This document shows positions 12,260-40,775 of a stretch of DNA of 64,000 nucleotides, one piece after another; within the stretch, counting starts at the first letter, position 1; each line of letters opens with the position of its first letter. A program made the position numbers and the translations under genes. Under the pieces are notes generated by a model. It was not told the DNA's origin. It did no database searches and saw only the letters and a program-made list of their open reading frames with translations. The stretch is taken from positions 1 to 64,000 of the forward strand of contig NZ_JAJSDQ010000003.1 in assembly GCF_021272345.1 (NCBI RefSeq). Reading direction: 5' to 3'. This stretch comes from Ornithinimicrobium sediminis (lineage in GTDB: Bacteria > Actinomycetota > Actinomycetes > Actinomycetales > Dermatophilaceae).

Positions 12260-12998
12260 GGCTGCCGTGGCGCTGACCCCCAGGGAGGTCACCGTCACCA
12301 CGGCCGACGGGCCGATGCCCGCCCTGCTGTGGCACCCCGACCCGCAGGTGCCGCGGCCCGGCCTGGTCGTCATGCAGGAGATCTTCGGGCTCAGCGACTA
12401 CGTCCTGGAGCGCTGTGCCGCGCTGGCCGACCTGGGGTATGCCGTGCTCGCGCCACAGTTCTACTGGCGACAGGGCGGTGAGGTCGTCCGCGACGACGAC
12501 CCCGGCTTCCTCGAGCGGGCCATGGGTCTCGTGCAGCAGACCGACTGGGACGCGGCCGTCGCCGACGGCATCGCCGCCGCCGAGCACCTCGACGAGACCG
12601 AGGGCATCACGGAGGTCGGCCTCGTCGGCTTCTGCTGGGGTGGCGGGCTGGCGTTCAACGTCGCAGCCGAGCTGGAGGGTGGCAGCACGCCGTCCGGGCT
12701 GGTGAGCTACTACGGCTCGGCGCTCCCCCAGCTCATCGACCTGGCACCCGAGGTCACCTGCCCCAGCCTGCACCACTTCGGCACCGCCGACGCCTACATC
12801 CCCCTCGACCAGGTGGAGCGCATCCGTGCCGCGGTCACCGACGGCGGGGCGCGCGACGACGTGGAGCTGAACCTCTACGAGGGCGCCGGGCACGCGTTCG
12901 ACAACCCGCACCCCCTGTTCCACCACTCCCAGGCCTCCGAGGAGGCGTGGGAGCGCACCGAGGACTGGCTGCTCCGCCACCTTCCCGTCCCCCTCTGA
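12252..12998 (+). CDS. Dienelactone hydrolase family protein
   Basis: The 248-residue alpha/beta hydrolase carries the family's Cys nucleophile in GFCWGGG (Cys128), Glu43 in MQEIFGL, and the His in GAGHAFDNPH, with Asp in the TADAYIP region. This is the Cys-His-Asp arrangement of dienelactone hydrolase (carboxymethylenebutenolidase) rather than a Ser hydrolase. True substrates of such paralogues are mostly unknown. The start is a GTG at 12252 inside the preceding gene's end. The gene finishes exactly where a 31-bp repeat array begins, and a minus-strand gene ends on the other side. Confidence 0.9.
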   Translation: MSEAAVALTPREVTVTTADGPMPALLWHPDPQVPRPGLVVMQEIFGLSDYVLERCAALADLGYAVLAPQFYWRQGGEVVRDDDPGFLERAMGLVQQTDWDAAVADGIAAAEHLDETEGITEVGLVGFCWGGGLAFNVAAELEGGSTPSGLVSYYGSALPQLIDLAPEVTCPSLHHFGTADAYIPLDQVERIRAAVTDGGARDDVELNLYEGAGHAFDNPHPLFHHSQASEEAWERTEDWLLRHLPVPL

Positions 12999-13150
12999 CG
13001 CGTTGCCAGGGAAAGTGCACCTCTCCCCACGCGTTTGCCAGGGAGATCGCGCCGGTGATCACGCGTTGCCAGGGAGATCGCGCCGGTAACCGCGCGTCGC
13101 CACGGAAAGAGCACCGCTCCTCACGCGGTGCCACGGAGGCTCCGCGTCGC
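12998..13150. repeat. Intergenic 31-bp tandem repeat array (five degenerate units)
   Basis: Units start at 12998, 13029, 13061, 13092 and 13123. The best conserved core is ACGCGTTGCCAGGGA. Units 2 and 3 also share GATCGCGCCGGT, and one unit has an extra T (GCGTTTGCC). Units 4 and 5 are diverged (GCGTCGCCACGGA, GCGGTGCCACGGA). The array fills the whole gap between two convergent genes. The core is shared with the array at 40481. Confidence 0.85.
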
Positions 13151-13154
13151 AGGG

Positions 13155-14792
13155 TCACGTGGCGTCGCGACTGGCGATGATGCTGACCAGGACGGGCTGG
13201 ATGTCCGTGGCCTCCTCCACCTGCCGGAAGGCCCCACCGACCGAGTCCACGATCGTCCGCATCGGCTCGGCCTCCATCTCGGGGCCCATCCCGATGACGA
13301 CGACGTCGACCGGCCGCTCGTCGTCACGCTCCTCCGTCAGACGGGCGACCACCTCCTCCTGCGACAGCCCCCCGTCCGGGTCGTAGTTGCGGCCGTCGGT
13401 GAGCAGGACGATGGAGTTGCGGTAGTCCGGGTCGTAGTCCTCCAGCATGTGCTGGTAGGCGGCGTAGAGACTGTCGTGCAGCCCGGTGTTGCCCTCGGTG
13501 TGCTCGTCGTCGAGCGACTGGGTGATGCTCAGCAGCTGCTCGCGATGGGTCACGCCCTCGGTGGTCTGCTCCATCGCCCGGACGGGGAGGGCCTCGACCC
13601 AGTCCTCCCCCTCGGGGCCACGGTGCGTCGAGAACCACCACAGCCCGATCTGGGTGCGTGGTGCCAGTCCCTGCAGTGCGTAGCCGGAGGCATCCATGGT
13701 CAGGTCGAAGCGGCTCTGGCCGTCCTCGGTGACGACGTCGTCCATCGACCCGGAGACGTCGATGACGACCAGCATCCGGGAGTTCGGGCTCACGGTCGCC
13801 CAGCGCTCCAGCAGTGTCCGGGTGTCCCCGGCCTCGACCGGGACCTCGGCAGGGGCGTCGTCGGGAACGCCCTCCACCAGTGCCTCCCCGGGGGCGGAGG
13901 CGGGTCGCAGCCCTGCCTCGCGCCACAGCTCGGCGCTCTCGTCGGCCTCCAGCGCCTCGCCCAGCAGCCCCGTCGCCTCGCCGGCGTCGCCGAGCGTGAG
14001 CCAGGAGAAGGTCAGGGCGCCGGCGCCGCCCTGAGGGGTGAGCACGCCGAGGTCGGGCTCGTCGGTGGTCGCCAGCGCCTGTTCACTGGCGGGCACGAGC
14101 AGCTCGTCGGCCCCGGCTGCCGCCTGCAGTGCGTCCTCCTCGAGCGAGGTCTGTGCCAGGGACACCAGCAGCGCGTCCTGCTGCTCGGGAGTCGCAGCAC
14201 CGTCGAGCAGGGTGGTCACGGTGACCAGCGACGCCATCGACGCCGGGTCCTGGGTCGGGTCGCCGACCAGCAACGTCCGGCCCGGCGCGTCGAGCAGGTC
14301 CGTCCAGGCCACCCCTGCCTCACCGGCCTCGTCCCCGAGCCGCTCCACGTAGGCGGCGGGCCCGGCCAGCACCACTGGGCTGGTCGCCAGCACCGGGCCG
14401 GGCTCGAGCTCGAGCCCCTCGGCGAGGTCCGGCCACAGCGCGTGGTCGGGGACCCACGCCTGCGGGGGCTCGGCTCCCTCACCGAGCTCGGTGACGGCCT
14501 CGTAGGACGGCACGACCGTGACGTCGTACGTCGCACATCCGCCCAGCGCCGCGGCGACCTCCTGCACCACCGACGCGGCGGAGGGAGCAGCCCAGACCGC
14601 GACGGTCTCCTCGTCCGTGCACTCAGGCGTGGCGGTCGCGGCCTCGGACGACCCGCCTGCGGTGTCCTCCTCGGAGTCCGGTCCGAAGAGCATCCACGCG
14701 CCGCCGCCGAGCACGACGAGGGCGAGCAGAGCCAGGATGACGACGGTGAGGGGACCTGGTCCGGACCTCTCCGTGCTGGTATGGCGACCCAT
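13155..14792 (-). CDS. Membrane-anchored protein with solute-binding-like and VWA domains (paralogue 1)
   Basis: The 545-residue protein has an N-terminal anchor helix (residues ~14-34, LTVVILALLALVVLGGGAW). Then comes a periplasmic-binding-protein-like part with VWAAPSAASVVQEVAAAL and AWVPDHALWPDLAEGL. The C-terminal von Willebrand A domain has the MIDAS motif DVSGSM near residue 343 plus TDGRNYDPDGG. It matches the substrate-binding and VWA domain-containing family, probably acting outside the cell in metal-dependent protein binding. It lies 41 bases downstream of a paralogue of the same layout. A TAACAT -10 stands six bases before the ATG, so it has its own leaderless promoter. Confidence 0.87.
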   Translation of the reverse strand: MGRHTSTERSGPGPLTVVILALLALVVLGGGAWMLFGPDSEEDTAGGSSEAATATPECTDEETVAVWAAPSAASVVQEVAAALGGCATYDVTVVPSYEAVTELGEGAEPPQAWVPDHALWPDLAEGLELEPGPVLATSPVVLAGPAAYVERLGDEAGEAGVAWTDLLDAPGRTLLVGDPTQDPASMASLVTVTTLLDGAATPEQQDALLVSLAQTSLEEDALQAAAGADELLVPASEQALATTDEPDLGVLTPQGGAGALTFSWLTLGDAGEATGLLGEALEADESAELWREAGLRPASAPGEALVEGVPDDAPAEVPVEAGDTRTLLERWATVSPNSRMLVVIDVSGSMDDVVTEDGQSRFDLTMDASGYALQGLAPRTQIGLWWFSTHRGPEGEDWVEALPVRAMEQTTEGVTHREQLLSITQSLDDEHTEGNTGLHDSLYAAYQHMLEDYDPDYRNSIVLLTDGRNYDPDGGLSQEEVVARLTEERDDERPVDVVVIGMGPEMEAEPMRTIVDSVGGAFRQVEEATDIQPVLVSIIASRDAT

Positions 14793-14798
14793 GACGGC

Positions 14799-14804
14799 AT
14801 GTTA
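14799..14804 (-). promoter_or_regulatory. -10 element of VWA paralogue 1 (leaderless)
   Basis: TAACAT is followed by GCCGTC and the ATG at 14792 on the minus strand. Confidence 0.6.
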
Positions 14805-14833
14805 GGGGACTCCGGGGTCCGATGTCGGGAGGT

Positions 14834-16507
14834 TCAGCCACCTTGACGGTTGGCGATGATGCTGACCAGCACCGGCTCGATGTCCGTGGCCTCCTCCACC
14901 TGCCGGAAGGTCCCACCGACGGAGTCGGCGATCCGCTCCATCGGTGCGGCCTGGATGTCCGGACCCATGCCGATGATGACGACGTCGACCGGACGCTCGT
15001 CGTCCTGGGCGTCCTGCAGGGCCGCGATCAGCTCGGCCTCGCCGAGCCCGCCGTCGGGGTCGTCGTTGATCCCGTCGGTCATGAGGACGATCGAGTTGCG
15101 GAACGAGGCGTCGTGGTCGGCCTGCAGCTCCAGGTAGGCGGCGTAGAGCGAGTCGTGCAGCGCGGTGTCACCCCCGGTGTGCTCCTCGTCCAGCGAGCGG
15201 GTCAGCTCGAGCAGCCGCTCGCGGTGCGTCGCGCCGCCGTCGTCGGCCTCCAGGCCACGCAGGGGCAGGGCCTCGACCCAGTCCTCGCCGTCGGGACCGC
15301 GGTCGGTGGAGAACCACCACAGCCCGATCTCGTTGCGCGGGGCCATGTCCTCCAGTGCCGTCGACAGCGCGGACATCGTCAGGTCGAACCTGCTCTGCCC
15401 CTCCTGCCCGACCTCCTGGTCCATCGACCCGGACACGTCCACGACCACGAGCATCCGGGAGTTGGGACGCAGGATCAGCCAGGTGTCCAGGAACTCCTGC
15501 ACCTGCGCGGCGTCGGCGACCGGCGCGTCCTCGACCTGTGCCGGGACACCCTCGACCCCGGGCCCCTCGCCGTCGGCACCCGCCCGCAGACCGGCCTCCC
15601 GCCATACGGACTCGGAGGCGGTGTCGACCAGCGCCGCGGAGAGGGCGTCGACGGACGGGCTGCCCTCGCCGAGACCGACGAAGGGGTAGGCGAGCACACC
15701 GGCGCCGCCCTCAGGAGCCAGCACCGTCAGGTCGGCGTCGCCACCCAGCTCGGCCAGCGCCTGTTCGGTCGTGGGCACCAGCACCGGCTCACCCTCCGCT
15801 GCCGTCTCGAGCGGCTCACCCTCGAGCACCCGCTGGGCCAGCGAGACCAGCAGGGCGTCCCGCATCTGCGTGCCTTCCTCACCCTCCTCGGCCAGGCGTC
15901 CGTTGGCGGTCAGCATCATGGTCAGCGACGCAGGGTCCTGCAGCGGGTCACCGGCGAGCAGCGGCTGGCCCGGCAGCTCCATGAGCTCGGCCCACCCCGG
16001 CTCGTCGCCCAGCTCGTCCGCCAGTGAGCCCGGTGCTGCCAGCACGACCGGGGAGGTGGCGACGACCGCCCCCGGCTCGGCCCCCAGGTCGAGCTCCTGC
16101 ACGGCGTCCGCCCAGATCGTGGAGTCGGGGATCCACACGTCCGGGGCCTGCGCCCCCTCGCTCAGCTCGGCGAAGGCCTGGTAGGAGGGCACGGCCTCCA
16201 CCTCGTAGGGACCACAGTCCTCCACACCGTCGGCGATCCGGGTCACCGCACCCTCCACCTCGGGCGCGACCCAGACGGTGACGGTGCCGTCGTCCTCACC
16301 GCACGCCGCCGGTGGGGCCGTCGTGGTCGCGGTGGTGTCGTCGACGCCGGCGCTGGAGCCGTCCGCGAGCTCGGGCCCGTCGTCCTCACCCCCGAGCACC
16401 ATCCACACCAGGCCGGCCACGCCGACGACGGCGAGCACCGCCACCAGGGCGACCAGGGCACGGGTGCGGCCCAGGCCCGACTGATAGGGGTTGCGATGGT
16501 CCGCCAT
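14834..16507 (-). CDS. Membrane-anchored protein with solute-binding-like and VWA domains (paralogue 2)
   Basis: The 557-residue protein is built like its neighbour: an anchor helix (residues ~16-40, ALVALVAVLAVVGVAGLVWM), an acidic linker, a solute-binding-like part (VWVAPEVEGAVTRIADG, VWIPDSTIWADAVQEL), and a C-terminal VWA domain with MIDAS DVSGSM near 356 and MTDGINDDPDGG. The two VWA domains are nearly identical over long runs (for example GEDWVEALP, YAAY, EATDI.PVLVSII), indicating tandem duplication. The larger open frame to 16969 was rejected because it runs into the divergent gene; ATG 16507 has TACCAT six bases upstream. Its binding partner is unknown. Confidence 0.87.
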   Translation of the reverse strand: MADHRNPYQSGLGRTRALVALVAVLAVVGVAGLVWMVLGGEDDGPELADGSSAGVDDTTATTTAPPAACGEDDGTVTVWVAPEVEGAVTRIADGVEDCGPYEVEAVPSYQAFAELSEGAQAPDVWIPDSTIWADAVQELDLGAEPGAVVATSPVVLAAPGSLADELGDEPGWAELMELPGQPLLAGDPLQDPASLTMMLTANGRLAEEGEEGTQMRDALLVSLAQRVLEGEPLETAAEGEPVLVPTTEQALAELGGDADLTVLAPEGGAGVLAYPFVGLGEGSPSVDALSAALVDTASESVWREAGLRAGADGEGPGVEGVPAQVEDAPVADAAQVQEFLDTWLILRPNSRMLVVVDVSGSMDQEVGQEGQSRFDLTMSALSTALEDMAPRNEIGLWWFSTDRGPDGEDWVEALPLRGLEADDGGATHRERLLELTRSLDEEHTGGDTALHDSLYAAYLELQADHDASFRNSIVLMTDGINDDPDGGLGEAELIAALQDAQDDERPVDVVIIGMGPDIQAAPMERIADSVGGTFRQVEEATDIEPVLVSIIANRQGG

Positions 16508-16513
16508 GACCGC

Positions 16514-16519
16514 ATGGTA
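16514..16519 (-). promoter_or_regulatory. -10 element of VWA paralogue 2 (leaderless)
   Basis: TACCAT is followed by GCGGTC and the ATG at 16507, nearly the same start region as paralogue 1. Confidence 0.6.
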
Positions 16520-16609
16520 GGCGACGGTGCCGACGTCGGCCCCACCACCGGTGCGACAACACGCCACCGGCCGCTGGCGAGGCACACCCGGCAGGAGTTC
16601 ACTGGCCTC

Positions 16610-17398
16610 ATGGACTACTGGCAGACCATCCGGGCGGAGTCGGCCCGCTTCGGCGAGCTGGTCCGGGCCCTCGACGCCGCCGCCCCGGTGCCGTCCTGCC
16701 CGGGCTGGACCGTGGCCGACCTGACCTACCACCTGGCCGAGGTCCAGGACCAGTGGGCGCGGGTGGTGCAAGGAGCGGACGGGTCGACCCTGACGCCTCT
16801 GCGCAGACCCGCCGACCCGGACCTCCCGGACGCCTTCGAGGCGGCCTCCGCGCGGCTCCTCGAGGCCCTCGCCGAGGCCGACCCCGCCGGCCCCTGCTGG
16901 TCGTGGCACCCGGAGGGCGGCAGCATCGCCTGGGCGCTGCGCCGCCAGGCCCACGAGGCACTCATCCACCGGGTGGACGCCGAGACCGCTGCCGGGCTGA
17001 CCCCGGCGGCACCCGCCGAGCCCGGTCTGGCCGCGGACGGGGTCGACGAGGTGCTCACCGTGATGGTCGCGGGTGTCCCGGAGTGGGGGCGGTTCACCCC
17101 GGACGGCCGGCTGCTGCGCGTCCGCGCGACGGAGGGGGCGGTCGTGACCGACCTGACCCTGCGCCTGGGCCGCTTCACCGGCACCGGCCCCGACAGCGGC
17201 ACGGAGTGGGACCTCGCCGCGGCCGAGACGGCCGCCGGGGCCGCCGAGGTGGACCGGGCACCGGTGGTGCAGGGCGACGCGTGGGGTCTGGACCTGTGGC
17301 TCTGGGGCCGCGGACCCCTGCCTGTCGACACCGCCACGGATGCCGACCCGGCCCTGCTCGCAGAGCTCCGGGAGCTGCTCGTGGAGGCGACCCAGTGA
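16610..17398 (+). CDS. Maleylpyruvate-isomerase-family protein (MDMPI/DinB-like)
   Basis: The 262-residue protein starts MDYWQTIRAESARFGELVRAL. It has the family motif SCPGWTVADLTYHLAEVQ (His ~46), a second His region RRQAHEALIHRVDAE around 115-125 completing the putative metal-binding triad, and the MDMPI C-terminal domain ending LLVEATQ. It matches the TIGR03083 actinobacterial set. The substrate is unknown. The ATG at 16610 was chosen because the hydrophilic N-terminal helix begins there; extension to 16496 would read into the divergent VWA gene's promoter. It is a distant paralogue of the gene at 4737. Confidence 0.85.
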   Translation: MDYWQTIRAESARFGELVRALDAAAPVPSCPGWTVADLTYHLAEVQDQWARVVQGADGSTLTPLRRPADPDLPDAFEAASARLLEALAEADPAGPCWSWHPEGGSIAWALRRQAHEALIHRVDAETAAGLTPAAPAEPGLAADGVDEVLTVMVAGVPEWGRFTPDGRLLRVRATEGAVVTDLTLRLGRFTGTGPDSGTEWDLAAAETAAGAAEVDRAPVVQGDAWGLDLWLWGRGPLPVDTATDADPALLAELRELLVEATQ

Positions 17399-17413
17399 GC
17401 CGGCCGGCGTCCC

Positions 17414-18193
17414 TCAGCTCCGGGGCAGGCCGTCCTCCAGGTATGGCGGGTGCTCACCGGACGCGAGCTGCTCCAGCAGCCGTGCGACATACGGGGCGAC
17501 GTGCGCACGGGCCTCGTCGACGTCGGCCCAGTGGACCGCTGCGATCTCGTTGCGCTGCAGGACCGCCTGCTCACGCAGGTCCGGGTGCACCCCGAGGTCG
17601 AAGACACAGAGCAGCGCGTCGTCCCACTGACGGTAGGGCGGCAGCCAGTCGACGGTCAGCAGCTCGCCGACGCTGACCTCGTGGCCCAGCTCCTCACCCA
17701 CCTCTCTGGCCAGGGCGTGCGCGGGCGACTCGTGCGGGTCGACCACACCGCCGGGCAGGTCCCACTCCTGCTTGTAGGTGAGCTCGCACAGCAGGAAGCG
17801 ACCTGCCCCGTCGCGGATGAGCCCCTGCGCGATGACCCGCTTGAGGGCCAGGGTCGCGTTGAGCATGGCGAGGTGGCCGGCCCGGGTGTCCGGGTGAGGG
17901 TCACCGGCGAGCCGGGCCACGCGCACACCGTCACGCCGGTGGCCACCCGGACCTGGCAGACGACCGCGCGAGCGTCCCTCGGGACGCAGGCCGGCGCGGT
18001 GCAGGGTGCGGCGCAGCTCCCGGTCCTCGACCGCCACCTCGGCCTCGACCCGGCCGAGCCCGTTCCCGAAGGCCCGCTCGAGCTGGTCACCCAGGGCGGC
18101 ACCCGCCTGGGGGTCAAGCCACCACGGGTCCGAGTCGTCCCAGGTCAGCAGTCCGATCCCGGGGCTCGTCTCGTCGATCTGCCAGGGCACCAC
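17414..18193 (-). CDS. Nudix hydrolase with an N-terminal acetyltransferase-like segment
   Basis: In this 259-residue protein, residues ~115-245 are a Nudix domain with the box GGVVDPHESPAHALAREVGEELG (Gly-x5-Glu-x7-Arg-Glu-x2-Glu-Glu-x-Gly), split here only as a description. It is preceded by GRFLLCELTYKQEWDLPGG. It hydrolyses a nucleoside-diphosphate-linked substrate that cannot be named. The first ~110 residues (EVAVEDRELRRTLHRAGLRPEGRSRGRL) look like the C-terminal half of a GNAT acetyltransferase, giving a possible truncated fusion. The start is a GTG at 18193. It lies 22 bases downstream of paaN and probably shares its transcript. Confidence 0.85.
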   Translation of the reverse strand: MVPWQIDETSPGIGLLTWDDSDPWWLDPQAGAALGDQLERAFGNGLGRVEAEVAVEDRELRRTLHRAGLRPEGRSRGRLPGPGGHRRDGVRVARLAGDPHPDTRAGHLAMLNATLALKRVIAQGLIRDGAGRFLLCELTYKQEWDLPGGVVDPHESPAHALAREVGEELGHEVSVGELLTVDWLPPYRQWDDALLCVFDLGVHPDLREQAVLQRNEIAAVHWADVDEARAHVAPYVARLLEQLASGEHPPYLEDGLPRS

Positions 18194-18215
18194 CGGGTCA
18201 GCCTGCCACAGCGGC

Positions 18216-19931
18216 TCAGACGTGGCGGCGGCTGGTGACCACCCTGAAGCGGCTCGCCACGAACGCAGCGTCGGTGTAGGCGGCGTTGGCAGCCGGGTTC
18301 GCGCCGGTGCCGTGGTAGTCGCTGAAGGCTGCCGTCTGGTTGACGAAGACCTGCCCCGTCAGGTTCTCCGACAGCGCGACCCCGGCGTCGGCCGCCGCCT
18401 CGCGGGTCTGCTCCAGCACAGTGTCGTCGGTGGAGTAGACGGCGGCCGTCATGCCGCCGAACTCCCGCACCGTGCGCCGGAAGAGGTCGAGCGACTCGTC
18501 GGTGGAGCCGGTGCGGATGACGAACGCGACCGGGCCGAAGCACTCCTGCGTGTAGGCGGGCTCGTTGCCCGCGTCGACGGCGACGAGTGCCGGGGTCCGC
18601 ACGACGGCGTCCGGGTAGGACGGGTGCACGACGCCCCGCGAGTCCAGCAGCACCTCGCCGCCGAGGCGCTGCGCCAGGGCAGGCACGTCGGTCGCGCGGT
18701 CCCGCACGTCGTCGTTGACCGTGGCGCCGAGGATCTCCACCGCCTTGGCGTCGTCACCGGTGAAGCGGGAGATCGCGCCGGCGATGCGCTCGCCCACCTC
18801 CTCGAAGGTGAGGTCCCCCTCGTCGGTGCGGATGCCGTCGGACGGCACGTAGACGTTCTGCGGGGCGGTGCACATCTGGCCGGAGTAGAGGGAGAACGAG
18901 AAGGCCAGGTTGCCCAGCATCCCCTTGAGGTCGTCGGTGGAGTCGACCACGATGCTGTTGAGGCCGGCCTTCTCGGTGTAGACGAGCTTGCCCGCGGCCA
19001 CCGCCTCGGTCTCCAGCCACCGGCCGAACCCGGGTCCACCGGTGTAGTCGATGATCGCGACCTCCGGACGCAGGGCCAGGGTCTTGGCCAGGCCCGTGCC
19101 GTCGTCCTCCGCCGCCAGCTGCGCCAGGGCACGGTCGAACCCGGCGGACTCGAGCACGTCGCGGGCGATGGCCACCGTGAGCGCCAGCGGCAGGACCGCC
19201 TTCGGGTGCGGCTTCACGACGACCGGGTTGCCCGTCGCCAGCGACGCGAACAGGCCGGGGTAGGAGTTCCAGGTCGGGAAGGTGTTGCACCCGATGACCA
19301 GCGCCACGCCGCGCGGCACGATGCGGTAGTCCTTCTGCATACGGATGGGGGCCTTCCGGCCGGGCTTCTCCCAGAGGACACCGGCGGGCACGCGCTCCTG
19401 CTCGACCAGCGCGGCCACGACGGCCTCCAGGGCACGGTCCTGTGCGTGCGGCCCACCCGCCTGGAAGCTCATCACGAACGGCTGGCCACTGGTGTGCATG
19501 ACCGCGTGGGCCATCTCGTGGGAGCGACGGTTGACCTGCTCGATGATCTCGACGCACACCGCGGCACGGGTCTCGGCACCGGCGTCTCGCCAGGCGGGCA
19601 TCGCGGCGAGGGCCGCGGCCATGCCTGCGTCGAGGTCGAGCTTGGGGTAGCGCACCCCGAGCTGCGGACCGTACGGCGAGACCTCGCTGCCCACGCTGCG
19701 CCCCGTGGAAGGCTGGTCGGACAGCGCCGTGAACTCATGGTTCTGCAGCGCCTCGAAGGCCATCTCGCCGTCCTGCGGAGCCGTCTCCCCGTAGACGCGC
19801 GGGGAGGGTGACTCCGGGTAGCGGCTGTAGTAGCTGCGCTGCGCCAGCGCGGTCTTCGCGGCCTCGATGGTCTCGCGGTGGGTGTCCGTCAACGGGTGCG
19901 TCGCCAGGGTCTCAGTCACGCCGATCACCAT
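18216..19931 (-). CDS. paaN: Phenylacetic acid degradation protein PaaN (aldehyde dehydrogenase family)
   Basis: The 571-residue aldehyde-dehydrogenase-fold protein has VIGCNTFPTWNSYPGLFASLATGNPVVVKPHPKA in its cofactor-binding half (given as landmarks GCNTFPTW and VVVKPHP). It also has YTEKAGLNSIVV and the active-site segment SLYSGQMCTAPQN with the catalytic Cys. Length and motifs match the stand-alone PaaN family without a MaoC domain, assigned to oxidising the ring-opened semialdehyde in phenylacetyl-CoA catabolism. The start ATG at 19931 (MVIGVTETLATHPL) fits the family better than an extension to 19964. paaH and paaI lie divergently upstream; the paaABCDE oxygenase is not in this window. 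Confidence 0.87.
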   Translation of the reverse strand: MVIGVTETLATHPLTDTHRETIEAAKTALAQRSYYSRYPESPSPRVYGETAPQDGEMAFEALQNHEFTALSDQPSTGRSVGSEVSPYGPQLGVRYPKLDLDAGMAAALAAMPAWRDAGAETRAAVCVEIIEQVNRRSHEMAHAVMHTSGQPFVMSFQAGGPHAQDRALEAVVAALVEQERVPAGVLWEKPGRKAPIRMQKDYRIVPRGVALVIGCNTFPTWNSYPGLFASLATGNPVVVKPHPKAVLPLALTVAIARDVLESAGFDRALAQLAAEDDGTGLAKTLALRPEVAIIDYTGGPGFGRWLETEAVAAGKLVYTEKAGLNSIVVDSTDDLKGMLGNLAFSFSLYSGQMCTAPQNVYVPSDGIRTDEGDLTFEEVGERIAGAISRFTGDDAKAVEILGATVNDDVRDRATDVPALAQRLGGEVLLDSRGVVHPSYPDAVVRTPALVAVDAGNEPAYTQECFGPVAFVIRTGSTDESLDLFRRTVREFGGMTAAVYSTDDTVLEQTREAAADAGVALSENLTGQVFVNQTAAFSDYHGTGANPAANAAYTDAAFVASRFRVVTSRRHV

Positions 19932-20138
19932 AACGCCGACGTCCGCGCACCGGGCACCGGGCACCGGGCACCCGACGACCCTGGACCGGGTCCACGCCGC
20001 GGCAGGGCTGGGCGCCGCTCTGCGTCATACGAAGCCGGCGCTGCAGCGCTGGACGCCCATGGCGGTGAGGCGCAGGTCGACCGGGCCCAGGGCGTGGGCC
20101 GTGGCGCCGCCACCTCACCGCGAGGGGGCACCGGGTGG

Positions 20139-20144
20139 CACGAT
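20139..20144 (+). promoter_or_regulatory. -10 element of paaH (leaderless)
   Basis: CACGAT is followed by GCTTCC and the ATG at 20151. Confidence 0.5.
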
Positions 20145-20150
20145 GCTTCC

Positions 20151-31006: not shown

Positions 31007-31030
31007 GGTGCTGTGCTGCAGCACAGCACC
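31007..31030. repeat. Perfect 24-bp palindrome without loop
   Basis: GGTGCTGTGCTG at 31007-31018 is followed directly by its exact reverse complement CAGCACAGCACC (31019-31030). It lies 70 bases after the GNAT stop and directly next to 19-bp tandem repeats that reuse GCAGCACC. It could act as a terminator hairpin or cruciform, or as a protein-binding site. Confidence 0.85.
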
Positions 31031-31032
31031 GG

Positions 31033-31069
31033 TCAGACAACGCAGCACCCCTCAGACAACGCAGCACCC
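31033..31069. repeat. 19-bp tandem repeat (two units)
   Basis: TCAGACAACGCAGCACCC occurs at 31033-31050 and 31052-31069. Its GCAGCACC end repeats an arm of the neighbouring palindrome. The rest of the gap between 30938 and 31244 holds no gene; TAGGGT near 31170 may be the -10 of the TetR gene. Confidence 0.8.
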
Positions 31070-33113: not shown

Positions 33114-34626
33114 CGGGGGCGCTCCTGGTTGGCACGGCCTGACCCACCGGCCGTCGCAGCGGCAGGTGGACCGTGAACACGGTGCGGCCCGGCCGCGACT
33201 CCACCGTGACGTGGCCCTGGTGGGCCTGGACGACGGCGGCCACGATCGCGAGCCCCAGCCCGGTGCTGCCGCTGCCCGGCGAGCGCGCATGGTCGCCGCG
33301 GGCGAAGCGCTCGAAGACCTGGGGCAGCTGCGACGCCGGGATCCCCGGCCCGTCGTCGGTCACCTCGAGCACGGCCTCGCGACGGCCGTCCGCAGCGGCC
33401 GCCGCCGTCAGCGCGAGCGTGACCGTCGTGCCCGCCGGAGTGTGCACCCGGGCGTTGGCCAGCAGGTTGGCGACCACCTGGTGCAGCCGCGCGGGGTCGC
33501 CGTCGAGCTCCACCGGGTCCTCCGGCAGCTGCAGCACCCAGCGGTGGTCGGGCCCCGCGGCCTGCGCGTCCGCGAGGGCGTCGACGACGACAGCGGTCAG
33601 GTCGACCCGCTGCGGCTCCACGGCCGGCGCGGCGTCGAGGCGGGCCAGCAGCAGCAGGTCCTCCACCAGCGCCGACATGCGGGTCGCCTCGGACTCCACC
33701 CGGCCCAGTGCGTGCGTCACGTCCGCCGGCAGGTCGTGGGGACTGCGCCGGGTCAGCTCGGCATAGCCCCGGATCGAGGCCAGCGGCGTGCGCAGCTCAT
33801 GGCTGGCGTCGGCCACGAACTGCCGCACCCGGGTCTCGCTCGCCTCACGGGTGCTGAGAGCCGACTCGACGTGCCCGAGCATCCGGTTGAACGCGGCGCC
33901 GACCTGGCCCACCTCGGTGCGCGGGTCGGTGTCCGCCTCCGGCACGCGCTCGACCAGCGCCACCTCACCCCGCTCGAGCGGCAGCTCGGCGACGTGTGAC
34001 GCAGCCGCGGCCACCCGGTCCAACGGCCGGAGCGTGCTGCGCACGATGGCGGTGCCCGCGGCCGCCGCCACCACCAGCCCCAGCAGGGCGACGGCCCCGA
34101 CCACCAGGACCAGGCGCTGCACCGTGCCCTGGAGGTCACCGAGGGCGAGGCCCGTCACCACGACCGTCCCGGCGGGACCCTCGGTGGCAGCCAGGCGGTA
34201 CTCCCCCAGGTCGGCGCCCAGGTCCACGGTGCGGTGCACCCCGTCGGCGGGGACGCTCGCGAGCTGTGCGGCCTGCTCGGCGGAGAGCAGCTGCGCGGTG
34301 CCCGTGCTGTCCAGCACGGCAGCCCGCAGGACGGCGCCGTCCTGGACCAGTGCCCCCAGGGTGTCCTCGGCCTGACCCGGCACGAGCAGGAACTCGGGCC
34401 CTCGACCGTGCCGGCCACCCTGGCCCTGGCCCTCACCCTCGCCCGTGGCCCGCTCGGCAGCGCCCTGTGAGCGGACCACTGCCGTGGCCAGCTGGTCGTC
34501 CAGCCGTGCGGTGAGGAAGTCGTCCATGGCCAGCACGCTGACCACGGCGATGACCCCCAGCACGGCGGCCATCAGGGCCGTCAACGCCACGGTCAGGCGC
34601 CGTCGGAGTGTCCAGTGCCTGGGCAT
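33106..34626 (-). CDS. Two-component sensor histidine kinase
   Basis: The 506-residue kinase starts MPRHWTLRRRLTVALTALMAAVLGV (TM1 ~11-33). It has an extracytoplasmic sensor (~34-170), TM2 (~172-195), HAMP (~197-250), and a HisKA domain with the phospho-accepting His276 in DASHELRTPLASIRGYAEL. Its HATPase has N-box NLLANARVH, G1 DDGPGIP and G2 STGLGLAIV. It is a complete EnvZ/OmpR-class kinase. It is 8 bases downstream of its response regulator and overlaps the unknown gene at 32529-33113. The stimulus is unknown; the likely output includes the secreted protein encoded divergently at 35576. Confidence 0.93.
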   Translation of the reverse strand: MPRHWTLRRRLTVALTALMAAVLGVIAVVSVLAMDDFLTARLDDQLATAVVRSQGAAERATGEGEGQGQGGRHGRGPEFLLVPGQAEDTLGALVQDGAVLRAAVLDSTGTAQLLSAEQAAQLASVPADGVHRTVDLGADLGEYRLAATEGPAGTVVVTGLALGDLQGTVQRLVLVVGAVALLGLVVAAAAGTAIVRSTLRPLDRVAAAASHVAELPLERGEVALVERVPEADTDPRTEVGQVGAAFNRMLGHVESALSTREASETRVRQFVADASHELRTPLASIRGYAELTRRSPHDLPADVTHALGRVESEATRMSALVEDLLLLARLDAAPAVEPQRVDLTAVVVDALADAQAAGPDHRWVLQLPEDPVELDGDPARLHQVVANLLANARVHTPAGTTVTLALTAAAAADGRREAVLEVTDDGPGIPASQLPQVFERFARGDHARSPGSGSTGLGLAIVAAVVQAHQGHVTVESRPGRTVFTVHLPLRRPVGQAVPTRSAPDV

Positions 34627-34634
34627 GGGCCGGC

Positions 34635-35393
34635 CTAGGAGGCCGGCTTGAGGACGTAGCCCGCGCCGCGCAGGGTGTGGATCATCGGCGGGCGGCCGGC
34701 GTCGACCTTCTTGCGGAGGTAGGACACGTAGAGCTCGACGATGTTGGCCTGGCCGCCGAAGTCGTAGTGCCACACGCGGTCCAGGATCTGGGCCTTGCTC
34801 AGGACCCGGCGGGGGTTGCGCATGAAGTAGCGCAGCAGCTCGAACTCGGTGGCGGTGAGCTCGACGGGATCGCCTGCACGCCATACCTCGTGGCTGTCCT
34901 CGTCCAGCACGAGGTCGCCGACGACCAGCCGGGGGTCGGGCCGGGTCTCGGCGACGGCGCGGGTGCGGCGGACCAGACCGCGCAGCCGGGCGATGACCTC
35001 CTCGAGACTGAACGGCTTGGTGACGTAGTCGTCGCCTCCGGCCGTGAGACCGGCGACCCTGTCCTCGACAGCGTCCTTGGCCGTGAGGAACAGCACCGGC
35101 ACGTCGTCCCCCGAGGACCGTAGGCGGTCCAGCACCTCGAGGCCGTCGATGTCGGGCAGCATCACGTCGAGCACGACGACGTCGGGGCCGAAGTCACGGG
35201 CCGCGTGGACCGCGCTCATCCCCGTGCCCTCGGTCCGCACCTGCCACCCCTCGTAGCGCAGCGCCATCTGCAGCAGGTCGGCCAGGACCGGCTCGTCGTC
35301 GACCACGAGCACGCGGACCGGCGACCCGTCGGGTCGGGTGAGCTCGCCCCCTGCCGCGCCCGGTCCTCCGTGCGGCCGACCGGCCATCTCCAT
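34635..35393 (-). CDS. OmpR/PhoB-family response regulator
   Basis: The 252-residue regulator has a receiver domain with acidic pocket VDDE (31-34), phosphorylated Asp76 in VVLDVMLPDIDG and Lys in YVTKPFS. The C-terminal winged-helix DNA-binding domain contains LTATEFELLRYFMRNPRRVLSKAQIL and IVELYVSYLRKKV. A ~25-residue extension before the receiver is present from the chosen ATG at 35393, where GTGAGG precedes. It is the first gene of the regulator-kinase-unknown operon. Direct GGGACAG repeats in the divergent promoter region may be its binding site. Confidence 0.93.
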   Translation of the reverse strand: MEMAGRPHGGPGAAGGELTRPDGSPVRVLVVDDEPVLADLLQMALRYEGWQVRTEGTGMSAVHAARDFGPDVVVLDVMLPDIDGLEVLDRLRSSGDDVPVLFLTAKDAVEDRVAGLTAGGDDYVTKPFSLEEVIARLRGLVRRTRAVAETRPDPRLVVGDLVLDEDSHEVWRAGDPVELTATEFELLRYFMRNPRRVLSKAQILDRVWHYDFGGQANIVELYVSYLRKKVDAGRPPMIHTLRGAGYVLKPAS

Positions 35394-35480
35394 GCACCTC
35401 ACTCTCGACGGGTGCGCTGTGTCCTCTCCCGACGCTACCTGTGCGTGCGCTGTGCCGGTGGGGCCGAAAGTCCTATCTCC

Positions 35481-35509
35481 GGGACAGCCACGGCACAGCC
35501 CCGGGACAG
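35481..35509. promoter_or_regulatory. Paired GGGACAG direct repeats, candidate response-regulator site
   Basis: GGGACAG occurs at 35481-35487 and 35503-35509, 22 bp apart (about two helical turns), in the 182-bp region between the response regulator and the secreted protein gene. OmpR-class regulators bind direct repeats. The assignment is inference. Confidence 0.35.
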
Positions 35510-35575
35510 GTTCGAGCAGCAACCTGGAGGTACGGGCTCGGGAGACACCCGGGACCGGTCGAGGAGGAGCACATC

Positions 35576-36193
35576 ATGAGGATCACCCAGAGAGTGGCCG
35601 CGGCGGGGATGGCCGGCGTCATCGGCCTCGGCGGGCTGGGCGTGGCCACCATGGGTGGCGCGTTCGCCGTGGCAGCGCCCGAGGACACGCCCGTCGCCGC
35701 CCAGGAGGTCGACCAGGACGTCTGCGACGGACCTGACATGCTGCGGGACCGCGACGGCGGTGGCCCGGCCGCTGACGGGCAGGGAGCCCGGCAGGGCCAG
35801 GCGGCCCGCAACGGCGCCGGACCGGTGAGCGGGACCGTCGCCGAGATCCTGGGCCTCACCCAGGACGAGCTGCGCGAGGCGATGTCGCAGGAGGACACCA
35901 CCCTCGCCGACGTGGCCGAGGACCAGGACGTCGCCACCGCGACCCTGGTCGAGGGCCTGGTCGCTGCGCACACCGAGCGCATCCAGGACCGTGTCGACGA
36001 CGGCCGGCTGTCGCAGGAGGCGGCCGACGCCCGCATCGCCGAGCTGACCGAGCGGGTCACCGCCATGGTCGAGGACGGCGTGCACGACCCTGTCCGGGAC
36101 CGTGACCGGGACCGCACGGACGACGGCGAACGCCCGGACGACGGTCAGCGTCGTCACGGCCAGCAGTCGCGGCAGGGCGGCCCCAGCAGCTGA
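35576..36193 (+). CDS. Secreted helical protein, uncharacterised
   Basis: The 205-residue protein has an N-terminal signal-like segment, MRITQRVAAAGMAGVIGLGG, ending in AFAVAAPED (cleavage likely after AVA). The mature part is an acidic and Arg-rich helical protein with LGLTQDELREAMSQEDTTLADVAEDQ and LVAAHTERIQDRVDDGRLSQEAADARIAELTERV (quoted in part). This resembles the helical repeats of DUF2680/YckD-like proteins. The tail is a low-complexity D/R/Q-rich stretch. GAGGAGG precedes the ATG at 35576. It is divergent from a two-component system, suggesting it belongs to that regulon. Function unknown. Confidence 0.8.
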   Translation: MRITQRVAAAGMAGVIGLGGLGVATMGGAFAVAAPEDTPVAAQEVDQDVCDGPDMLRDRDGGGPAADGQGARQGQAARNGAGPVSGTVAEILGLTQDELREAMSQEDTTLADVAEDQDVATATLVEGLVAAHTERIQDRVDDGRLSQEAADARIAELTERVTAMVEDGVHDPVRDRDRDRTDDGERPDDGQRRHGQQSRQGGPSS

Positions 36194-36214
36194 CCGCCAC
36201 GTCGACGCCGCCCA

Positions 36215-36251
36215 CGACGCCGCGCCCCGTCATCCGGGGGGCGTGGCGTCG
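36215..36251 (+). terminator. 14-bp-stem hairpin terminator
   Basis: CGACGCCGCGCCCC (36215-36228) pairs with 36238-36251, all Watson-Crick but one G-U, around a 9-base loop. It lies 22 bases after the stop of the secreted protein. Confidence 0.8.
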
Positions 36252-36328
36252 GGACGTCCGCGCCGGACCCGCCCGGCGCCGGCTGCGCAGGGCGGCACAA
36301 TGAGGGGCATCGGGACGGAAGGGGACCC

Positions 36329-37000
36329 ATGAGACGGCATACGGCGCTGCCCCCCTGGGACTCGGTCCTGGCGGTGGTGGCACATCCCGACGACGAGTCG
36401 TTCGGGCTGGGTGGCGTGCTGGCAGCGTTCGCCGCTCAGGGCACCCGCGTGTCGGTGCTCTGCCTCACCCGAGGCGAGGCCTCCACCCTGCACGGCGTCG
36501 AGGGAGACCTCGAGGAGCTGCGGGCCGGCGAGCTGGCCGCCGCGGCGCAGGCCCTCGGGCTGCACCACGTGCACCTCACCACGCACCCGGACGGCCGCCT
36601 GCCGGAGGTGGACCTCGACGTGCTCGCCGCGCACGTCGTCGAGGACGCCCGCCAGGTGCGCGCCGACGGCCTCGTGGGCTTCGACCTGACCGGCGTGACC
36701 GGGCACGCCGACCACGCCCGGGCGACGCAGGCGGCCGTGCGCGCTGCGGAGACACTGGACCTGCCGGTGCTGGGCTGGACCATCCCGGACACGGTGGCCG
36801 AGCAGCTGTGCACCGACTACGGCGCCCCGTTCGAGGGCCACCGGCCCGACCAGATCGACCTCACGGTGCCGGTGGACCGGCCGCTGCAGCTGGCTGCCGT
36901 CGCGTGCCACCCGAGCCAGGCCGTGCCGGGGAGCGTCCTGTGGCGTCGGCTGGAGCTGCTCGGCGACGAGGAGCACCTGCGTTGGCTCCGGCGGGCGTGA
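36329..37000 (+). CDS. PIG-L family deacetylase (LmbE-like)
   Basis: The 223-residue protein has the zinc-binding motif AHPDDESFG (His19, Asp22) and the later His in GHADHARAT that completes the LmbE/PIG-L metal site. The family removes N-acetyl groups from GlcNAc-like sugars, including the mycothiol pathway enzymes MshB and Mca. This protein is shorter than MshB (usually ~300 aa), so it is more likely another PIG-L member. GGAAGGGG precedes the ATG at 36329, and a CACAAT -10-like sequence is at 36296. Confidence 0.88.
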   Translation: MRRHTALPPWDSVLAVVAHPDDESFGLGGVLAAFAAQGTRVSVLCLTRGEASTLHGVEGDLEELRAGELAAAAQALGLHHVHLTTHPDGRLPEVDLDVLAAHVVEDARQVRADGLVGFDLTGVTGHADHARATQAAVRAAETLDLPVLGWTIPDTVAEQLCTDYGAPFEGHRPDQIDLTVPVDRPLQLAAVACHPSQAVPGSVLWRRLELLGDEEHLRWLRRA

Positions 37001-37095
37001 GAGCCGTCTCCCCTGGGGCGGAAGGAGGGGTGAGGTGCACGCTCGGCGGCCCCGAGAAATGTACGGACGACCGGACGTATGGTTCACTAGTGACA

Positions 37096-37109
37096 TACCC
37101 CCTGGGGTA
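37096..37109. promoter_or_regulatory. CsoR/CstR-type operator before the rhodanese-TauE operon
   Basis: TACCCC-CT-GGGGTA is an inverted repeat with 6-bp arms, 36 bases before the GTG start at 37145. It overlaps the expected transcription start downstream of a TATGGT -10-like sequence (~37078). CsoR-family repressors (copper-sensing CsoR, persulfide-sensing CstR) recognise this type of sequence. Confidence 0.6.
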
Positions 37110-37144
37110 ACTAACCCACCCTCACCACGAAGGAGCACTGCCCG

Positions 37145-37738
37145 GTGACCACCACCACCCAGACCCCCGCCCTCGTCGACTCCGCCTGGCTGGCAGAGCA
37201 GCTGGACGGCGGGTCCGCGCCGCGGGTCCTGGACGTGCGCACGCCCGCCGAGTTCGAGACCGCCCACATCCGCGGCTCCTACAACGTCCCCCTGGACACG
37301 CTCCGCGAGCACCGCGACGACATCGCCCGCCATCTCGACGAGGACGTGGTCCTCGTGTGCCGCTCGGGTCAGCGCGCCCAGCAGGCGGAGCAGGCCCTCG
37401 CCAGCACCGACCTCAGCAACGTCAAGGTCCTGCACGGCGGCATCACCGCCTGGCAGGGGGCCGGCCACCCCGTCAAGGAGGGCCACCAGCGCTGGGACCT
37501 CGAGCGCCAGGTGCGCCTCGTCGCCGGCTCGGTCGTGCTCACCTCGATCGTCGCGAGCGCCTTCGTCCCCGCGGCCCGCTGGGTCGCAGGGGGGATCGGC
37601 GGAGGGCTGACCTTCGCCGCGCTCAGCAACTCCTGCGCCATGGGGGCCCTGCTCTCGAAGCTCCCCTACAACCGGCCGGCCTCCTGCGACCCGCAGTTCC
37701 TGGTCGACCAGCTGGCGGGAGGCTCACAGCCGCGATGA
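37145..37738 (+). CDS. Rhodanese domain fused to a DUF2892-like membrane segment
   Basis: In this 197-residue protein, residues ~10-108 form a rhodanese domain: LDVRTPAEFETAHIRGSYNVPL, the active-site loop VCRSGQRA with Cys72, and LHGGITAWQGAGHPV. A C-terminal membrane part (~117-175) has two helices and a further Cys in SNSCAMG. Rhodaneses move sulfane sulfur; the fusion suggests handling of sulfur species at the membrane. The start is a GTG at 37145. It overlaps the TauE exporter gene by ATGA, and the operator upstream is of the CsoR/CstR type, consistent with control by persulfide. Confidence 0.9.
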   Translation: MTTTTQTPALVDSAWLAEQLDGGSAPRVLDVRTPAEFETAHIRGSYNVPLDTLREHRDDIARHLDEDVVLVCRSGQRAQQAEQALASTDLSNVKVLHGGITAWQGAGHPVKEGHQRWDLERQVRLVAGSVVLTSIVASAFVPAARWVAGGIGGGLTFAALSNSCAMGALLSKLPYNRPASCDPQFLVDQLAGGSQPR

Positions 37739-38634
37739 GCACCCTCGTCCTCACCCTGGCCCTGGCAGTCCTGGTGGGCGTCACGCTGGGCCTGCTGGGC
37801 GGCGGCGGCTCGATCCTCATGGTCCCCCTGCTGGTCTACGTGGCCGGCATGGAGGCCAAGGAGGCCATCGCCACCTCGCTGCTGGTCGTGGGCGTCACCA
37901 GTGCCGTCGGCGCCATCTCGCACGCGCGGGCCGGCCGCGTGCAGTGGCGCACCGGCCTCATCTTCGGGGCCGCCGGCATGGCCGGCGCCTACGGGGGCGG
38001 GCGGGTGGCCGAGTTCATCCCGGGTGAGGTCCTGCTCATCGCCTTCGCGCTCATGATGCTGGCCACCTCGGTCGCCATGCTGCGCGGCCGCAAGGCGGTG
38101 GACCCCGACAAGGTCCACGAGAAGCTGCCCGTCGGCAAGGTGGTGCTCGAGGGTCTGGTCGTGGGCCTGGTCACCGGCATCGTCGGCGCGGGCGGCGGCT
38201 TCCTGGTCGTGCCGGCGCTGGCCCTGCTGGGAGGGCTGCCGATGCCCGTCGCGGTCGGCACCTCCCTGGTCGTCATCGCGATGAAGTCGATGGCAGGGCT
38301 GGCGGGCTACCTCGCCTCGGTGCAGATCGACTGGACCACCGCCGCCATGGTCACCGGGGCCGCCGTCGTCGGTGCCCTGGTCGGCGGTCTGTTCTCGGGC
38401 AAGATCCACCCGGACACCCTGCGCAAGATCTTCGGCTGGTTCGTGCTGGTCATGGCGTTCTTCGTCGGCGGCAGGGAGGCACCCGAGGCGTTCTGGTCGC
38501 TGCTGCCGTTATGGGGCTGGGTCGCCGTCGGCGCAGCCGTGGTCGCCGCGGTGACAGGCCTGGTCCTGTTGCGCCGCAGGCGCTCACGCAGCACCGTGGT
38601 GGACAGTCCCCCCGCAGTGACGCGCCAGGAGTGA
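37735..38634 (+). CDS. TauE/SafE-family sulfite or sulfur-compound exporter
   Basis: The 299-residue polytopic protein has the duplicated TauE/SafE layout: VGVTLGLLGGGGSILMVPLLVYVAGM in the first half and VTGIVGAGGGFLVVPALALLGGL in the second (GGGGS/GAGGGF signatures), with about eight helices. It probably exports sulfite, thiosulfate or a related compound. The ATG at 37735 overlaps the rhodanese stop, so the pair is coupled; the longer frame (to 37357) is inside the rhodanese gene. The arrangement parallels cst-type sulfide-detoxification operons, though no persulfide dioxygenase or CstR is beside it. Confidence 0.9.
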   Translation: MSTLVLTLALAVLVGVTLGLLGGGGSILMVPLLVYVAGMEAKEAIATSLLVVGVTSAVGAISHARAGRVQWRTGLIFGAAGMAGAYGGGRVAEFIPGEVLLIAFALMMLATSVAMLRGRKAVDPDKVHEKLPVGKVVLEGLVVGLVTGIVGAGGGFLVVPALALLGGLPMPVAVGTSLVVIAMKSMAGLAGYLASVQIDWTTAAMVTGAAVVGALVGGLFSGKIHPDTLRKIFGWFVLVMAFFVGGREAPEAFWSLLPLWGWVAVGAAVVAAVTGLVLLRRRRSRSTVVDSPPAVTRQE

Positions 38635-38635
38635 G

Positions 38636-39421
38636 ATGAAGCCGCAGCCGCCGGACGTCCGCCCCCTCGACCGGGCCAGCCCGCTGCCCCTGTGGGCCCA
38701 GCTGCACGGCGAGCTGGTGCGGCGGCTCAACGCCGGAGCGTTCGTCGACGGCTTCCCGGGGGAGCACGAGATCCAGCAGACCTACACCGTCTCGCGGCAC
38801 ACGGTGCGCGAGGCGATGCGCCGCATCCGGGACGCCGGCCTGGTCGAGTCCGGCCGTGGACGGCCCACGCGCGTGCGGCCCGCCAGGCTCGAGCTGGGGC
38901 TGGGGAGCCTCTACTCCCTCTTCCGCGAGGTGGAGGCTCTCGGCATGGAGCAGCGCAGCACCGTGCTGTCCCTGGGCATGTCACCGAACCCCACGGTCGC
39001 CGTGGAGCTGGACCTGCCGGTCACCGAGCCGCTCTTCCATCTGGAACGGGTGCGCTTCGCCGACGGCACGCCGCTGGCCCACGACCAGACCTGGCTGCCC
39101 GCCGAGGTCGGCGCGCCGCTGCTCGACACCGACTTCGAGCGGGCCTCCCTCTACGAACAGCTGGAGCGCCTTGGCGGCCGGCGACCCGACGGGGGCCGCG
39201 AGCGCATCACGGCCGTGGTGCTGGACCTGGCGATGAGCCGCGCTCTCGGGGCTCCCGGCAGCACCGCCGGCCTGCAGGTGCACCGGGTCGGCACCGTGGA
39301 CGGTCACCCGATGGAGTACCGCCGCAGCACCATCCGTGCCGACCGCTACTCCCTGGTCATGGACTGCTCCTCGCACGGCTGTCGGGTCGGAGCCACGACC
39401 CAGGTGCACCGGACGCGCTGA
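38636..39421 (+). CDS. GntR-family (HutC/UTRA-type) transcriptional regulator
   Basis: The 261-residue regulator has an N-terminal winged helix (PGEHEIQQTYTVSRHTVREAMRRI, ~41-64, then GLVESGRGRPTRV) and a C-terminal UTRA ligand-binding domain of the HutC subfamily (ERVRFADGTPLAHDQTWLP, HRVGTVDGHPMEYRRSTIRADRY). The effector is unknown. It begins one base after the TauE stop (TGAGATG), so it is in the rhodanese operon and may control it or a distant sulfur or amino-acid function. Confidence 0.9.
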   Translation: MKPQPPDVRPLDRASPLPLWAQLHGELVRRLNAGAFVDGFPGEHEIQQTYTVSRHTVREAMRRIRDAGLVESGRGRPTRVRPARLELGLGSLYSLFREVEALGMEQRSTVLSLGMSPNPTVAVELDLPVTEPLFHLERVRFADGTPLAHDQTWLPAEVGAPLLDTDFERASLYEQLERLGGRRPDGGRERITAVVLDLAMSRALGAPGSTAGLQVHRVGTVDGHPMEYRRSTIRADRYSLVMDCSSHGCRVGATTQVHRTR

Positions 39422-39446
39422 CGGGCCTCCGGCATACTGGCTGACC

Positions 39447-40463
<1,017 letters not shown>

Positions 40464-40480
40464 GCCGCCCTCCCCCATCC

Positions 40481-40605
40481 CGCGTTGCCAGGGGTTTTCC
40501 GCCCCCCACCCCCGCGTTGCTAGGGGGTTTGTGCCCCACAGGCCGCGTTGCCAGGGGTTTTCCGCCCCACCCTGAGCGTTGCCAGGGGGGCCTTGCCTGG
40601 GACGC
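40481..40605 (+). repeat. 31-32-bp intergenic tandem repeat array (four units, plus a degenerate fifth)
   Basis: Units begin at 40481, 40513, 40544 and 40575, with a diverged one at 40606. The consensus core is GCGTTGCCAGGGG followed by TTTTCCGCCCC in units 1 and 3; unit 2 has GCGTTGCTAGGGG. Each unit can form a small hairpin of GGGG with CCCC. The core matches the array at 12998. Confidence 0.85.
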
Positions 40606-40695
40606 ACGCCTGCCAGGGCCGTGTCCCGTCCACTCTGGCCGCAGTCGCTCCTCCTCCCCGACGACATCCCAGCGCACATGCCCTGCACAACCCCG

Positions 40696-40775
40696 AGCAA
40701 GCGAGGTGGACGGGGCGGAACACCCCTAGCAAGCGAGGTGGACGGGGTGCAGAACCCCTCGCAAGGGGGTGGGGG
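40696..40775 (-). repeat. Inverted array of the same 32-bp repeat family
   Basis: Two 32-bp units (40696-40727, 40728-40759) and a partial third read AGCAAGCGAGGTGGACGGGG on the + strand. Their reverse complement carries TTGCTAGGGGTGTTC and CCCC at the same spacing as the array at 40481, so the two arrays face each other across ~90 bp. This whole 327-bp gap (40464-40790) holds no gene. Confidence 0.7.

Follow-up and report, generated by a model that had tools for sequence, protein, structure and literature searches.

Tandem 31–32-bp repeat arrays behind stop codons in Ornithinimicrobium sediminis, and families of other sequence at gene ends in congeneric genomes

The intergenic gaps of a 64,000-nucleotide stretch of Ornithinimicrobium sediminis DNA (the window; C10:1-64000 of G000, this genome, 3.53 Mb in 16 contigs) hold three tandem arrays of one short unit, and the question that they raise is what such rows of repeats are doing at the ends of genes. 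The original prediction had placed three arrays with a period of 31–32 bp in two intergenic regions of the window. Tandem Repeats Finder (TRF) recovered all three where they had been placed, with periods of 31, 31 and 32 bp (scores 117, 134 and 113); we call them A, B and C. They belong to a family, hereafter R1, that extends far beyond two intergenic regions, to about 25 loci of the genome. Most R1 arrays lie in sense orientation behind stop codons, neighbouring arrays face each other, and other species of the genus carry families built on different sequences.

R1 copies exceed chance: there are 31 exact occurrences of the 12-mer GCGTTGCCAGGG in the 3.53-Mb genome and none of its reversed control. 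A sequence-only model of R1, made from 52 two-unit stretches taken from the window and 14 fetched stretches, gave at least 85 matches in this genome at E≤1 (150 of 3715 first-look candidates scored), and 67 at the stricter E≤0.001. Within the fetched loci, a weight-matrix scan resolved 40 arrays of two or more units, with 135 units in all, at those ~25 loci; four single units are omitted from this census. A separate scan of another 400 kb, picked where the census had no match, found no R1 arrays.

Each R1 unit is a core of ~20 bp (about CGCGTTGCCAGGGAGTTTGC) alternating with an 11-bp C-rich spacer, and the information profile falls from ~20 conserved bp to 11 bp under weak constraint. The split into a conserved first and a variable second part had been anticipated, but the conserved part takes up ~20 bp rather than half of the unit. 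The final unit retains the core only, the rest being lost, and an array therefore has the form core-(spacer-core)n. Spacings between cores are 32 bp (56 cases), 31 bp (38) or 30 bp (1), i.e., 31 or 32 bp in 94 of 95, and 13 of the 40 arrays mix 31- and 32-bp spacings. Unit chaining permitted spacings of 29–34 bp only; no same-strand arrays adjoin within one gap, so that other spacings are not hidden as split arrays.

The position and direction of the arrays are strongly constrained. Placement counts for R1 cover 40 arrays, including one strong single unit and leaving out the minus-strand array of locus L020, which is overlain by a called open reading frame (ORF); for all families, arrays inside called genes were dropped and identical copies were counted once. 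The 5' end of the array faces a same-strand stop codon in 34 of the 40, at a median distance of 2 nt and within 35 nt in 33 of those 34, and the other six face a gene start. Wherever two R1 arrays neighbour each other with no gene between, they face inward (13/13). The flanking genes are convergent for 25 arrays, same-direction for 15 and divergent for none; counted by gap, 17 of the 27 array-bearing gaps are convergent, as compared with 58 of 336 gene neighbours over 400 kb of this genome picked away from arrays. The proposal of a dispersed family at gene ends thus survived a test set in advance, with further copies genome-wide and a non-random placement, and the proposed pairs facing each other were borne out at every neighbouring pair in this genome. 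The description of the element as orientation-flexible was misleading. The flanking genes are ordinary: a Pfam family was assigned to 44 of the 50 proteins scanned, out of 53 flanking ones, with aconitase-, ClpX-, ribosomal L9-, GrpE/DnaJ- and cytochrome-c-oxidase-IV-like proteins among them.

Comparison of units indicated how the arrays grow. Spacer identity is 0.70 within an array, 0.46 between the facing arrays of one locus and 0.47 between different loci; for cores the corresponding values are 0.88, 0.83 and 0.83. Since spacers are alike within arrays but not between facing arrays, arrays homogenise one by one, and the suggestion that they spread as pairs finds no support in the spacers of a locus's two arrays. 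In the minus-strand array of locus L016, all three spacers repeat the last bases of the array's own gene, including its stop codon, which points to duplication in place. A likeness of at least 0.8 between spacer and gene end was seen in 3/40 R1 arrays (control fraction 0.017) and in 9/83 arrays of the R2 family described below (control fraction 0.025).

Within the window, array A (13001..13149, plus strand) comprises five units with cores at 13001, 13033, 13064, 13095 and 13126 (spacings 32, 31, 31 and 31 bp), the final two cores being degenerate (scores 5.0 and 9.8). It begins 2 nt past the TGA (12996-12998) of a plus-strand ORF at 12252..12998, begun at 12267 in a separate gene call, which we take to be dienelactone-hydrolase-like (DLH), a name given from the sequence rather than from a Pfam scan; this gene has matches in 25 of the 31 genus genomes, its own included. 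Array A stands alone between convergent genes, without a facing partner, and the stop codon of the minus-strand von Willebrand factor A domain gene (PF00092; 13155..14792) lies 18 nt past its final core. Array B (40483..40607, plus strand) has four units with cores at 40483, 40515, 40546 and 40577 (spacings 32, 31 and 31 bp) and a degenerate fifth core near 40608. It lies 19 nt past the TGA (40461-40463) of a plus-strand ORF at 39336..40463, begun at 39447 in the separate call and presumably galE-like, a name again not taken from a Pfam scan. Array C (40692..40768, minus strand), of three units with cores at 40766, 40734 and 40702, the last of them weak (score 3.9), faces array B. It is antisense to the next gene, a penicillinase-repressor family gene (BlaI/MecI-like; PF03965) at 40791..41171 on the plus strand, and lies 24 nt ahead of the start codon at 40791. 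Two same-direction genes flank this facing pair of B and C. The window also holds a 19-bp tandem repeat of a different unit at 31024-31069 (2.4 copies, 92% matches).

Four other loci of this genome deserve separate mention. At L146 (C7:177620), a lone strong R1 unit behind a stop codon is followed by an inverted repeat with another copy of GCGTTGCC, possibly the seed of an array. At L149 (C7:796634-796735), same-strand grpE- and dnaJ-like genes enclose a weak R1 array and a single weak unit facing it. At L148 (C10:311203-312706), a ribosomal protein L9 gene is convergent with a heliorhodopsin gene, and both a strong hairpin and an R1 array lie between them. At L152 (C14:77492-79203), the ctaF end, an insertion sequence with an integrase core (PF00665/PF13683) sits between plus- and minus-strand R1 arrays, apparently having inserted into a facing pair.

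The distribution of R1 among relatives is narrow. It is present in 1 of 31 Ornithinimicrobium genomes and, under stricter filters, in 1 of 186 genomes of the family, in both cases this genome. One member of the genus set has a 2000-base stretch identical (100%) to O. murale strain DSM 22056. In a sample of the order, 4 of 396 genomes matched, one of them this genome; the other three gave single, partial, weak matches without surrounding arrays, and we rejected them as arrays. A viral origin was likewise rejected, the sole matching viral stretch being an unrelated 16-bp repeat. A second family, R2, of 32-bp period (model from 27 two-unit stretches), matches 17 of 30 congeners and not this genome, and a model search under the stricter filters found it in none of the 155 remaining genomes of the family. 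At R2 loci, which are those picked by the R2 search itself among the matches listed, two partly overlapping sets gave spacings of 32 bp (146 and 121 cases), 31 bp (6 and 0) and 33 bp (4 and 4). R2 arrays face a same-strand stop codon in 19/32 cases in G020, 12/18 in G016 and 29/36 at 3-kb loci of other species, and neighbouring R2 arrays face inward in 11/11. A third family, R3, has its core GACCGGACAGGCGTTAGTGCCGC at 153 sites (≤3 mismatches) in G030, at one site in G001 and at none in the 29 remaining genomes. A 22-bp unit underlies its arrays (47 spacings), other spacings being 17–44 bp, with single gaps of 66 and 90 bp; 26 of 30 arrays face a same-strand stop codon, and 9 of 11 neighbours face inward, so that over R1, R2 and R3 together 33 of 35 neighbours do so.

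Single loci illustrate the differences between species. The ctaF end carries R1 arrays in this genome, facing arrays with an unrelated core in G030 and a 32-bp array in G023. Near the DLH gene, five species have an array of differing copy number (six units in G003 and in G027, four in G021, two in G028, and six plus two facing in G020). In a CtaF tree of 28 rows, with G023 left out, R2 is spread over the genus's two main branches, and R1 is placed next to species without R2; R2 may thus be older and R1 a replacement, although one short protein is weak ground for this. Intergenic 12-mers that recur in G010 and G001, examined over 200 kb each (part of the latter reads N), revealed no such family. 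Other tandem repeats were noted in congeners, i.e., a 53-bp array of 6.2 copies (92% matches) at the ctaF locus of G025 (L217:2662-2989), a 36-bp array of three copies in the same genome (L167:3007-3113), whose period fits no multiple of the helical repeat, and repeats of periods 30 and 54 in G001 (L257:11345-11425 and L258:9841-9943), whose consensus units have in common a stretch resembling CGACCGGCGACACG.

The GGGG/CCCC pairing noted for the variable part of the unit does not improve the folding of the arrays over that of shuffled sequences. The mean z is 0.04±0.22 for R1 arrays (n=40) and 0.27±0.18 for R2 arrays (n=49), and RNA structure was rejected as the conserved feature of both. R3, which is partly palindromic, folds somewhat better than shuffles (–0.85±0.34, n=29).

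The reading that we prefer, tentatively and at somewhat under an even chance, is that the arrays represent one family within a class of directional repeats at gene ends, found in the genus and replaceable in sequence, whose rows of bound sites act as a one-way transcription stop. An R1 array is a short row of 20-bp sites every 31–32 bp, about three helical turns, with C-rich spacers between; each core would be bound by a species-specific factor, DNA-binding being likelier than RNA-binding, and the row would stop RNA polymerase in one direction as it enters the intergenic space from the gene. Two facing rows would insulate neighbouring genes, and between same-direction genes antisense transcription would be the target of the second array. 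Arrays would lengthen and shorten in place through tandem duplication, and different lineages use different families. Rows of directionally read bound sites are favoured because unlike R1 spacers keep equal length and because direction is constrained, and a bound site is favoured over a hairpin because the core is conserved without RNA structure; from these features we infer the bound factor and the transcription stop. A one-way stop also fits the sense orientation behind stop codons and the inward facing, and the array geometry recurs in congeners with other cores. A broader claim, that this is a new class of directional DNA element in which regularly spaced gene-end sites and a fast-evolving factor make one-way stops, the site sequence being swapped wholesale between congeneric species while the geometry is kept, appears rather improbable to us at present. 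Helical spacing as a rule for the whole class was rejected, since 31–33 bp is kept in R1 and R2 and not in R3.

Termination or protein binding had already been suggested for the repeats, and the sole test run of this, the exclusion of terminator hairpins from array-bearing gaps, did not reach significance. With arrays masked, hairpins below –18 kcal/mol were found in 4/16 array-bearing as against 10/10 array-free gaps, and for whole gaps no threshold was significant; a shuffle-based hairpin test in this genome gave 4/16 versus 7/10 (nominal p=0.043). This early signal disappeared once 400 kb picked away from known arrays were added, and arrays as substitutes for terminator hairpins were rejected. 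In the enlarged set, the gap at L020, over whose arrays the gene caller had predicted an ORF, was assigned manually to the two-array group. Array-free convergent gaps of this set had a strong hairpin in 7/9 cases near array loci and in 4/23 in the new stretches, and array-bearing convergent gaps in 4/8 cases with one array and 0/9 with two (p=0.083). At the ctaF end, a strong hairpin is present in 21 of 26 congeners with a called gene, five congeners have neither a hairpin nor an array call, and this genome, which has arrays, has no hairpin.

Several results weigh against a one-way stop. Convergent gaps of the enlarged set have a strong hairpin in 4/17 cases with any array and in 11/32 without (p=0.53), so that hairpin replacement is not shown, the corresponding comparisons in congeners are not significant (1/14 with and 5/24 without R2 arrays; 2/9 with and 10/18 without R3 arrays), and G030 and G023 have hairpin and array together at the ctaF end. 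Neither R1 nor R2 was detected in 13 of 30 congeners. R2 is laxer than R1, with only those 19 of 32 G020 arrays facing a same-strand stop codon and 10 of 86 arrays lying between divergent genes, and R3 spacings vary, so that strict spacing is not general in the class. A tie of arrays to the same genes across species was rejected, flanking genes being shared between families in 1/53 cases (the ascertained ctaF) versus 5/232 controls. No trans-acting factor for the arrays was identified, and the gene calls beneath all placement counts are our own, made from codon usage.

A strong rival, itself open to doubt and a little less probable in our judgement, is that the arrays are selfish or neutral repeats, a mobile or copied 20-bp core that lands behind stop codons, where it does least harm, and expands by slippage without host function. 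The differences in family between species, the congeners with neither family and the lack of any tie to particular genes all speak for this, as do the copy numbers of two to six at the DLH locus and the spacers of the L016 minus array, which indicate growth in place. Such repeats do not by themselves explain the sense orientation and the inward facing, nor the equal 31/32-bp spacing despite unlike spacers, and no REP-associated tyrosine transposase (RAYT) was found in 31 genomes. An element acting at the RNA level, in the 3' untranslated region, seems unlikely: here C-rich spacers in the transcript would load Rho or another RNA-binding factor, making the arrays tandem terminators like Rho utilization (rut) sites. 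Its case is that spacers are C-rich on the sense strand (C–G skew 0.55 for R1 and 0.52 for R2, as against 0.00 (n=34) and 0.03 (n=86) in array-free 3' stretches), that arrays lie in sense orientation where ribosomes leave the RNA, and that R1 and R2 have no excess structure. Whole arrays, however, are barely richer in C than in G (0.05 for R1, 0.10 for R2, 0.12 for R3) because the cores are G-rich, the 31/32-bp spacing has no obvious reason under RNA binding, and antisense arrays ahead of gene starts could act only on antisense RNA.

In Escherichia coli, bacterial interspersed mosaic elements (BIMEs) serve as gyrase or nucleoid-protein sites where strongly transcribed or convergent genes end. 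By analogy, the arrays might bind gyrase or a nucleoid protein and manage supercoiling at such ends, which would suit the preference for convergent gaps, the ordinary metabolic and housekeeping flanking genes and the near-helical spacing of R1 and R2; we consider this very unlikely, as such marked directionality, or a complete difference from one species to another, would not be expected of gyrase sites. Least probable of all is that a facing pair is the functional unit, its arrays acting as inverted repeats that form large RNA or DNA stems, either terminator or cruciform. Facing arrays are indeed reverse-complementary in their cores, but their spacers match no better than do the spacers of unrelated arrays, and several arrays have no partner in their own gap (array A and those at L012, L015, L022, L148 and L151).

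If the arrays do stop transcription, they would mark gene ends with a signal unlike either a hairpin or a simple sequence tract, one that is rewritten between congeneric species, and the co-evolution of gene-end signals and their readers would become directly testable. If they are instead selfish, they would be gene-end repeats that lack RAYT and obey a strong orientation rule. In both cases, they explain some puzzling gene-end gaps in the genus and supply markers of variable copy number, and their arrangement hints at a fast-changing way to mark or insulate gene ends.

Among known systems, the nearest are the repetitive extragenic palindromes (REPs), with BIMEs and REPINs, to which the original prediction had likened the repeats. 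A published account describes the GTAG and CGTC families as small intergenic repeats, some species-specific, which lie mostly between convergent or same-direction genes, downstream of coding regions; units often lie close together in opposite orientation, and no dedicated transposase belongs to the CGTC families (PMC3733652). R1 is likewise dispersed, extragenic, near gene 3' ends and species-specific. The defining palindromic stem-loop unit of 20–40 bp is absent from R1 and R2 and not cleanly excluded for R3; RAYT (PF01797) was found in 0/31 genus genomes at E≤1e-5, with 5/14 control genomes positive. As R1 and R2 lack palindromes and RAYT was not found in the 31 genomes, the arrays are not filed under REP. 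R1 differs further in its tandem 31/32-bp rows, 20-bp core, C-rich spacers, start a few nt from the stop codon and inward facing, and the joint copying of two inverted units that marks REPINs is not seen, given the spacers of facing arrays and the several lone arrays. Mycobacterial interspersed repetitive units (MIRUs) insert at overlapping TGA sites. Like R1, they are actinobacterial repeats at gene boundaries, placed to do little harm; they are described as inserting at start codons and carrying an internal ORF that is coupled to the gene, whereas most R1 arrays lie behind the stop codons of convergent genes (PMC12548453). Stem-loop terminators share the position behind stop codons and not the absence of excess folding in R1 and R2, which form no GC-rich hairpin. 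CRISPR arrays are also regular short repeats with spacers, but R1 consists of many dispersed arrays of 2–5 units whose C-rich spacers are alike within an array rather than unique, and no cas genes occur among the 50 scanned flanking proteins, no search aimed at cas having been made. Rho rut sites are C-rich, G-poor RNA, a composition approached by the R1 spacers and hardly by whole R1 arrays. No literature describing these repeats was found, judged by titles, and the arrays are rated as a new variant within the interspersed gene-end repeats.

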